DNA from: Candidatus Gastranaerophilales bacterium
GTDB lineage: Bacteria > Cyanobacteriota > Vampirovibrionia > Gastranaerophilales > Gastranaerophilaceae
Length of the DNA: 40,368 bases
Assembly: GCA_944326535.1 (NCBI GenBank)
Contig: CALVEJ010000010.1
Coordinates: forward strand, 1 to 40,368
Reading direction: 5' to 3'
This document shows, in pieces, positions 4,081 to 21,319 of this stretch. The position numbers were made by a program, and so were the translations under genes. The first letter of the stretch is position 1. Each line of letters begins with the position of its first letter. Below the pieces are notes generated by a model. The model was not told where the DNA came from, made no database searches, and saw only the letters and a program-made list of their open reading frames with translations.

Positions 4081-4176
4081 TGTTTTTTGTCCTTACATAT
4101 ACTATAACGAATATTAAAAAAAAATGTTCATTTTTTGTAAAAAAATTTTTTAATTGGATTAAAAATAAATATATAC

Positions 4177-4206
4177 TTGACAATAAGCAGTATTTACAGG
4201 AATATA
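4177..4206 (+). promoter_or_regulatory. Sigma-70 type promoter for the RNA/tRNA-Leu unit
   Basis: A perfect -35 box TTGACA at 4177-4182 is followed by an 18-base spacer and AATATA at 4201-4206; TATAGT at 4203 is the other reading. It points into the structured region and tRNA downstream, with a predicted transcript start near 4213. No open reading frame follows it. Confidence 0.65.
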
Positions 4207-4231
4207 GTTAAGTTACAAATGACATTATGAA

Positions 4232-4348
4232 GGTGTATTTTGCCCTGGTGGCAGGAACCAAAGAGTGAAGTACACCAGGAGAAAACAACTAAATGTTGTT
4301 TTCGAAAAGAGTTAGCGGAAGGCACGGAGTGCTCCGCCACAATACACA
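4232..4348 (+). ncRNA. Candidate structured RNA upstream of tRNA-Leu, family not recognised
   Basis: This non-coding stretch lies behind a good promoter and ahead of the tRNA, and it can fold extensively. The ends pair (GTGTATT at 4233-4239 with AATACAC at 4341-4347). Inside are an 8-bp hairpin AAAACAAC/GTTGTTTT (4282-4302) and a 9-bp hairpin GCGGA-GCAC/GTGC-TCCGC (4315-4337). CCTGGTG at 4244-4250 can also pair with CACCAGG at 4273-4279. Bases 4237-4252 (ATTTTGCCCTGGTGGC) are identical to 4367-4382, which spans the 5' end of the tRNA. It could be a small RNA, a leader acting on tRNA maturation, or a decayed tRNA copy. It does not look like 6S, SRP, RNase P or tmRNA. Confidence 0.45.
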
Positions 4349-4371
4349 TTTGAAAAGTAAAAAATAATTTT

Positions 4372-4457
4372 GCCCTGGTGGCGGAATCGGTAGACGCGTC
4401 GGACTTAAAATCCGATTGGGCTCACCCCCAGTGCCAGTTCAAGTCTGGCTCAGGGCA
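4372..4457 (+). tRNA. tRNA-Leu (anticodon UAA)
   Basis: This 86-base class II tRNA has an acceptor stem GCCCTGG/TCAGGGC with discriminator A at 4457. The anticodon stem is TCGGA/TCCGA around the loop CTTAAAA, with anticodon TAA at 4406-4408. It has a long variable arm typical of leucine tRNAs and a T-arm GCCAG-TTCAAGT-CTGGC. CCA is not encoded. It reads UUA, a codon expected to be heavily used in this AT-rich genome. Confidence 0.96.
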
Positions 4458-4465
4458 CTCTTTTT

Positions 4466-4494
4466 AAGACTCCCTTTAGGGAGTCTTTATTGTT
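4466..4494 (+). terminator. Terminator after tRNA-Leu
   Basis: AAGACTCCC (4466-4474) and GGGAGTCTT (4479-4487) form a 9-bp stem with a TTTA loop. TATTGTTT follows. It starts 9 bases after the tRNA end. Confidence 0.85.
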
Positions 4495-4593
4495 TCTGTG
4501 GGTAATCTGTGGGTGCATTTGTATCCGAATGAGACTTACCGTCTAATTTCCTTTAAAATTGCCAGCATCTATGTCCTCGTAATTCTGCAAAAA

Positions 4594-20245: not shown

Positions 20246-21319
20246 ATGTATTTTGACGATTACAGCACAAGTTTTCAAAGTTTATACGGTCCGATGTATA
20301 ATTTGCAAACAAATTATTCTGCATATTCTATGCCATATGCCGGCGGTGCTTATGCAGGCGGTATGTTTCCATATATGGGCGGTGCTTACAACGGCTCATT
20401 GACAAATGTACCTGTCGGACAGTTTGGCGCTGATCAATTGGTCAGAAATGATGAAACCAGAAATAATTATTATGCAGCTCCGATAGCTCCTCATAAGAAA
20501 AAAGATGAGCTGCCGACAATCCTCGGAATAATTGGTACTGCATTGGGTACTGCCGCTATGGCATTGGCTTTGGCTAAGGGCAGAGGTAAAAAGGTTCCAA
20601 AACCTGTACCTCCGAAACCTCCGGTACCTCCAACACCGGTACCTCCAAAACCGCTACCGCCAACACCGGTACCACCGAAACCGGTGCCACCAACTCCGGT
20701 ACCTCCAACACCGGTACCTCCAACACCGGTACCTCCAACTCCAGTACCACCGAAACCGGTGCCACCAACTCCGGTGCCGCCAACCATTTCCGGCTATTTG
20801 CCTGCGGCAACAACATCTAGCGTAAAAGCTTTGCCTGCAGCAACTACTCCGGTAAAGGGATTGCTTCCGGCACATACTCCGTCAGCAACTACATCTAGTG
20901 TAAACTACGGTTCAACAGTTATACTTCCGTCTTCAGGATCTGTATACAATATGCCGGCTGGTACTACAAAAGTTGCTGGTGCTCTTCCTCAAACGACAAC
21001 ACCTGTAGCAGGTTTACTTCCGGCGCATACTCCGGCAACTCCAGTAAATACTCAAACACCGGCTTTGCCTCCAATAGGTGATCTTGTATACGGAACAAAA
21101 AACAGATTTCCTGGTGTAACAAATTATCAAAACTTTGGTGATGATTTGCTCACAAAAATAAACAGTGATTATTCTGTATTGAAACATCCTGAAAAACTTA
21201 ATGGTGAAATTGTATGGACAACACATACTCCCAAAACATACAGCGATGCCCACAGCATTGGCGCTAATGCAAAAGGCGCAGATAAACTGGCTGCATTGTA
21301 TGAATCATTACAGAAATAA
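20246..21319 (+). CDS. Proline-rich single-pass membrane protein of unknown function
   Basis: This 357-residue protein has three parts. Residues 1-85 are Tyr/Gly/Ala-rich and low complexity (AGGAYAGGMFPYMGGAY). One membrane helix lies at about 90-110 (Ile/Gly/Ala-rich), followed by KGRGKK. Residues 117-180 are a PPTPV/PPKPV repeat. The rest holds repeats of LPAATT and GLLPAHTP and a folded-looking end from about residue 285 (FPGVTNYQNFGDDLLTKIN). Lys/Arg after the helix suggests that the proline-rich part may be cytoplasmic, by the positive-inside rule. TonB also has a Pro-rich stalk, but the TonB C-terminal domain is not seen. GGAG stands before the ATG, and a strong terminator follows. Confidence 0.75.
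   Translation: MYFDDYSTSFQSLYGPMYNLQTNYSAYSMPYAGGAYAGGMFPYMGGAYNGSLTNVPVGQFGADQLVRNDETRNNYYAAPIAPHKKKDELPTILGIIGTALGTAAMALALAKGRGKKVPKPVPPKPPVPPTPVPPKPLPPTPVPPKPVPPTPVPPTPVPPTPVPPTPVPPKPVPPTPVPPTISGYLPAATTSSVKALPAATTPVKGLLPAHTPSATTSSVNYGSTVILPSSGSVYNMPAGTTKVAGALPQTTTPVAGLLPAHTPATPVNTQTPALPPIGDLVYGTKNRFPGVTNYQNFGDDLLTKINSDYSVLKHPEKLNGEIVWTTHTPKTYSDAHSIGANAKGADKLAALYESLQK
20594..20785 (+). repeat. Pro-rich coding repeat (15-bp units, PPTPV/PPKPV)
   Basis: Tandem units such as CCAACACCGGTACCT encode five residues each, about a dozen in a row with T/K alternation. The GC content is far above that of the surroundings. The antisense frame gives a Gly-Thr-Gly-Val shadow without gene support. Confidence 0.85.

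Follow-up and report, generated by a model that had tools for sequence, protein, structure and literature searches.

Repeat units built from tRNA ends flank tRNA-Leu(UAA) and other tRNA genes in Gastranaerophilaceae

The tRNA-Leu(UAA) locus

We describe a repeat unit that lies directly upstream of a tRNA gene in a member of the Gastranaerophilaceae, a family of gut bacteria. The window, meaning the whole stretch of DNA analysed, spans 40,368 nucleotides and is contig C10 of the draft genome G000. It contains a tRNA-Leu(UAA) gene with a promoter and an intrinsic terminator and, between promoter and tRNA, a single copy of the unit (Table 1). The original prediction had read this layout from the sequence, and the layout is real. 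The promoter consists of a -35 box, TTGACA, at 4177-4182 and a -10 box, GAATAT, at 4200-4205. It went undetected in a generic promoter scan of the window; TTGACA-N17-GAATAT is kept at the tRNA-Leu(UAA) locus in all congeners checked, including those without a unit (G021 has GATTAT).

The unit starts by repeating part of the tRNA leader and 5' end. The 16 bases of this copy recur exactly at the true tRNA, as had been noticed, and none are expected by chance (100 shuffles). A copy of this kind opens every unit in relatives. Downstream of the terminator lies a short segment whose alignment to the 3'-side units of G001 and G020 was equalled by 0 of 500 shuffles. Two tandem repeats occur elsewhere in the window: one of period 87 bp and 3.7 copies at 50-368, and one of period 15/75 at 20596-20784, which resembles TCCAACACCGGTACC and probably lies within a coding repeat.

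Table 1. Features at the tRNA-Leu(UAA) locus (window coordinates)
Feature	Position	Strand	Basis
Promoter TTGACA-N17-GAATAT	4177-4205	+	Sequence; orthologous congener loci, unit-bearing or empty
Incomplete copy of the tRNA's leader and 5' end (ATTTTGCCCTGGTGGC) that opens the unit	4237-4252	+	Exact match to 4367-4382
Repeat unit of 130-bp period, made up of partial tRNA, hairpins, antisense arm, and leader	4242-4371	+	
Local hairpin CCTGGTG/CACCAGG enclosing the tRNA copy	4244-4279	+	Folding
Hairpin GAAAACAAC-TAAAT-GTTGTTTTC, TRART loop as in the module family	4281-4303	+	
Small hairpin GCAC-GGA-GTGC	4322-4332	+	Covariation, G-C becoming A-U in 4 relatives
Antisense arm TCCGCCAC, matching exactly the reverse complement of GTGGCGGA in the true tRNA	4333-4340	+	
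tRNA-Leu(UAA)	4372-4458	+	ARAGORN; Rfam RF00005
Intrinsic terminator	4466-4487	+	
Decayed remnant of relatives' 3'-side unit	4536-4569	+	Local alignment to G001 and G020 3' units

The stretch was thought to match no RNA family, and a search of 4130-4371 against Rfam agrees: no match reached the gathering score, and the best chance hit scored 14.5 bits against a cut-off of 85. Matches at permissive thresholds were chance snoRNA and lncRNA hits only.

Folding of the unit

The region 4230-4352 is strongly structured, as had been proposed. Its predicted fold has an energy of -41.2 kcal/mol (z -4.7), which none of 200 shuffles equalled. Within this fold, CCTGGTG (4244-4250) pairs with CACCAGG (4273-4279) or, alternatively, GGTGTA (4232-4237) pairs with TACACC (4271-4276), so that TTGCCCTG, supposedly left unpaired, is mostly paired inside the unit. 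In most relatives the partner of the tRNA copy differs (TTTGCCC/GGGCAAA). The antisense arm closes the unit by pairing with GTGGCaGGA (4248-4256), and this closing helix is almost invariant across 12 aligned units. The pairing proposed for the ends holds in part: GTGGC/GCCAC (4248-4252/4336-4340) is invariant in relatives, whereas the outer stem GTGTATT/AATACAC (4233-4239/4341-4347) is special to the window, because relatives do not have GTGTATT.

Most congeners keep the unit, with some compensatory changes, in line with a structured, lineage-specific leader. Four pairs in the 12 aligned units are doubly changed, and the alignment reaches a covariation score of 0.117 (shuffled alignments 0.075, 0 of 500 as high). 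Covariation support for the structure is thus real but modest, since independent events are few.

Does the copy interfere with the tRNA? It had been expected to pair with the 3' acceptor strand of the tRNA and to compete for its folding. Folding with the natural upstream leader predicts such pairing at no more than 1%, with the acceptor stem formed at 0.73-0.93; folding without the leader produces false mispairing. Across the Leu(UAA) units of 14 species, predicted mispairing averages 0.15, as opposed to 0.49 for shuffled interiors. These equilibrium figures, which leave co-transcriptional order aside, suggest that the window unit keeps its tRNA copy locked up rather than competing with the tRNA. 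Self-sequestration also holds for Leu(GAG). It is not general: for the 5' units of all tRNAs, equilibrium mispairing is 0.42 against 0.43 in shuffles (p 0.92). We therefore rejected self-sequestration as a family-wide law and regard it as a trait of some Leu units.

Distribution among congeners and across the family

A unit precedes tRNA-Leu(UAA) in 17 of 21 assessable congeners, the window's own genome included; 14 are full and 3 are partial or truncated by the contig. These units are 124-186 bp long, and a DNA search of the congeners placed the unit before tRNA-Leu(UAA) wherever the contig includes the tRNA. No unit is found at this locus in G005, G012, and G022, and the one in G018 is degenerate. 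With three congeners lacking it, the unit is dispensable, and the other families examined have tRNA-Leu(UAA) and no unit. Tandem units occur in G001, G002, and G153 (genus g49). These absences and tandem copies speak against the suggestion of a housekeeping RNA. Units are 0.99-1.00 identical within a genome, with a median identity of 0.75 between genomes. Several contigs terminate inside unit arrays, and every congener genome is a draft, which makes the copy numbers minimum values.

The Leu(UAA) units were used to build a covariance model, R1, which finds matches in 27 of 191 genomes of the family, spread over 13 of 41 genera. Fifteen of the 18 matched loci that were read have a tRNA nearby (Leu, Pro, Val, Met, or Lys), and a contig end interrupts the remaining three. 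In other genera the matched units sit directly 5' of these same kinds of tRNA. The weakest matches, such as those at tRNA-Met in L399 and L403, lie on the strand opposite the tRNA; they may be spurious or represent 3'-side units. Viral contigs gave two exact pattern matches only.

tRNA-end copies across the genome

We scanned each tRNA gene for copies of its own 5' or 3' end in its own flank. A match required 13 or more exact bases, including 8 from the tRNA itself, and other tRNAs were masked. Such copies flank 15 of 40 tRNA genes in G000 and 23 of 38 in the congener G021, compared with 1 of 40 in G027, which is from a different genus of the family, and 3 of 31 in G046, which is from a different family. 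Matches between the end of one tRNA and the flank of another, the control in G000, numbered 2 of 1437 and 0 of 1259. The window is therefore one case of a genome-wide phenomenon that affects both sides of tRNA genes, and its unit belongs to a family of repeats that flank tRNA genes.

The units share a common anatomy. A 5' unit opens with the leader and the first 8-20 or so nucleotides of the tRNA, followed by one or more hairpins, by a segment antisense to that tRNA end or a further D-arm piece, and by a leader box resembling TTGAAAATTAAATA; another copy or the true tRNA comes next. The 3' units are approximately mirror images, with the terminator and the T arm. Antisense matches to the unit's own tRNA average 9.0 nt in 5' units (5.1 nt shuffled, p 2.6e-5, n 23) and 8.2 nt in 3' units (5.8 nt shuffled, p 0.005, n 22), although related units share ancestry and these p values overstate independence. 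In the window unit the match is 8 nt long (TCCGCCAC, p 0.02).

A second, larger family of 3'-side units, containing GCGGTTTACCGTTCAATTTTCTTCGAAAATTGCCGGCATCCACGGCTGTAC, is repeated after tRNA-Leu(UAA) (L031 1227-1476, L033 298-500, L036 1-230), and similar sequence follows Gly, Arg, Gln, and Val tRNAs. A second tRNA-Leu(UAA) gene of G000, without a unit, lies in a dense group of roughly nine tRNA genes (G000:C102:1-5200, L230); the 73-kb contig that carries them looks phage-like.

A hairpin module and a dispersed element

Many units carry a strongly covarying module of the form ACTCTGCCGA-stem-TRART loop-stem-GAGAGG. In 62 of 70 distinct variants its stem covaries and its loop has five bases, which with few exceptions read TAAAT, TAAGT, or TGAGT. 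Stem pairs 1-8 are paired in 94-100% of the 70 variants, with up to four Watson-Crick types per pair (62-100% in shuffles). The central hairpin of the window unit has the TAAAT loop with different flanks.

Near tRNA genes the module has a set orientation: 62 of 62 point one way on the 5' side, and 14 of 18 point the opposite way on the 3' side. It is thus kept as DNA in both transcript orientations, which hints at recognition at the DNA rather than the RNA level. The module also occurs within a dispersed intergenic element of G000. This element spans about 180-300 bp, runs from TGTTCGAGAAAAATTCGTGATAAGGAGC to CACTAGATTARAT with nested hairpin modules, and is present in at least 13 copies (loci with 400-bp flanks: L238, L240-L243, L245, L246, L248, L250, L251, L253-L256); the five copies tested have no Rfam match. 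In G002 (L036) and G013 (L037) the central hairpin of the unit has another module, GACAAAGCGAACAGACGAAG..GCCTGTCTCCG, nested in its loop, and similar modules occur in some copies of the dispersed element.

Comparison with known systems

The closest known relative of the units is the E. coli tyrT/rtT repeat (RF00391). To our knowledge, tRNA-end repeats are known mainly as a curiosity of this one locus. At tyrT/tyrV of E. coli K-12, the 3' end of tRNA-Tyr recurs every 178 bp next to the intact gene, and the repeat contains hairpins together with antisense (GGGGAAGGAT, 10 nt, p 0.005) and sense (AAGGTTCGA, p 0.015) T-arm pieces of its own tRNA end. K-12 served as the control, as rtT was neither annotated nor evident by the tRNA-Tyr pair in another E. 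coli strain. Our family likewise has tandem units with exact copies of the adjacent tRNA end, the window having one such unit, and its units, the window's included, contain antisense of that end. The E. coli repeat is confined to tRNA-Tyr and to the 3' side, whereas the Gastranaerophilales units lie on both sides of many tRNAs and have a module in common. The RF00391 covariance model gives four matches in K-12 and none in the units or in the window. The units are thus built like tyrT repeats, with no detectable sequence relation, and fall outside RF00391.

Other systems are less similar. REP/BIME elements, with their RAYT transposases, are dispersed palindromic units of bacterial intergenic DNA; we know of no REP elements with tRNA-linked direct repeats, and the Y1 transposase is absent from the draft genomes of the unit-rich G000, G006, and G021 (it is present in G001, G019, and G020). 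The attL/attR scars of tRNA-targeting integrases have the duplication of a tRNA end in common with the units. The units differ in being gene-less inserts of about 60-190 bp that involve 5' as well as 3' ends, stand in tandem, and contain antisense to the tRNA. We know of no description of mitochondrial repetitive hairpin elements with copies or antisense of an adjacent tRNA end, or with tandem arrays tied to tRNAs. These repetitive hairpin-forming and double-hairpin elements (PMC2800124, PMC5910586) are organellar, unlike the units. They resemble the units as short hairpins that proliferate between genes and differ even among close relatives (PMC2800124). The open-access literature that we searched held nothing relevant on tRNA repeats in Gastranaerophilales or Melainabacteria or on tyrT/rtT, and within it the repeat family is apparently undescribed.

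Origin and maintenance of the units

We consider it probable that the window holds a single-copy tRNA-end repeat unit of the general tyrT/rtT kind, whose copy number is driven by recombination that always leaves an intact tRNA. Each unit repeats part of the tRNA leader and end, continues with at least one hairpin and with antisense to its own tRNA end, and finishes with the leader again, and units stack head to tail until the last copy continues into the intact tRNA. Recombination or slippage between the direct copies of the tRNA end would then shift the length of the array. The homogenised tandem copies, the empty sites, which bear the same promoter as occupied tRNA-Leu(UAA) loci, and the intact tRNA at every copy number all point to such growth and loss. 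As every event leaves a complete tRNA gene, arrays could grow, shrink, and homogenise harmlessly, and the units would be nearly neutral. They would be transcribed within the pre-tRNA, the leader presumably being removed by RNase P, and because the tRNA-Leu(UAA) unit is predicted to fold on itself, its copy would spare the true tRNA. Tandem duplication is not the whole account: the fixed orientation of the module on each side and its presence in a dispersed element count against simple tandem duplication. A module this common and dispersed suggests a second, spreading process, and a mobile hairpin module probably contributes to new units at new tRNA genes.

Such spread raises the question of whether the units are themselves miniature mobile elements, placed at tRNA ends by an integrase or transposase acting in trans, with the hairpin as recognition site and the tRNA repeats of 14-37 bp marking the crossover or a target-site duplication. 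First insertions with flanking direct repeats no longer than 14-16 bp (the window, G009), the module that tRNA units have in common with the dispersed element, in one orientation per side, and the nesting of other modules in hairpin loops in G002 and G013 would all fit. We nevertheless think this unlikely: the antisense segments tailor each unit to its own tRNA, unlike a generic element, and no integrase was seen among the open reading frames listed around the window's array. Y1 (RAYT/IS200) transposases and Cas1, the latter expected for casposon or CRISPR-type integration, are both absent from the unit-rich draft genomes G000, G006, and G021 (Cas1 also from G001), and RAYT and Cas1 were rejected as drivers on this ground. 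About as doubtful is a dedicated, undescribed Gastranaerophilaceae mechanism of recombination or copying that recognises the ACTCTGCCGA/TRART hairpin and writes self-complementary tRNA-end copies next to many tRNA genes, possibly as decoys for tRNA-targeting integrases; if true, it would amount to a tRNA-targeted miniature element of a new kind with an enzyme of its own.

Two further explanations seem quite improbable. A cis leader or small RNA whose function is to tune the folding or processing of tRNA-Leu(UAA), as originally predicted, would account for the conserved promoter and structure, for covariation above shuffles, and for sequestration kept through different partner sequences in different species. 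It sits poorly with the absence of the unit from three congeners and from all other families examined that have the tRNA, with variable copy number, with like units beside many other tRNAs, and with the lack of predicted pairing between copy and tRNA. The units might equally be remnants of tandem tRNA duplications, stripped of their anticodon and T arms on the 5' side and of their 5' half on the 3' side, given that many 5' units retain sense tRNA sequence (GGTAGCGCA or TGGTAGACGCA) after the module, plus leader or terminator, and that sense runs average 6.5 nt against 5.2 nt (p 0.007). Yet such an origin would leave the antisense segments and the common hairpin module unaccounted for, and we saw no intermediate that retains a degenerate tRNA in full.

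Units flank up to 60% of scanned tRNA genes per genome, on both sides and in many genera of one gut family. This spread over many tRNAs and genera, with a dispersing module, makes the origin of tRNA-end repeats testable by comparison. Annotating each unit as a separate regulatory RNA is unwarranted. The arrays may also explain the frequent breaks at tRNA genes in draft assemblies of Gastranaerophilales. The ends of contigs C5, C22, C50, C53, C75, C84, C89, and C103 of G000 lie no more than a few hundred bases from a tRNA gene, which is what arrays that break short-read assembly would produce.
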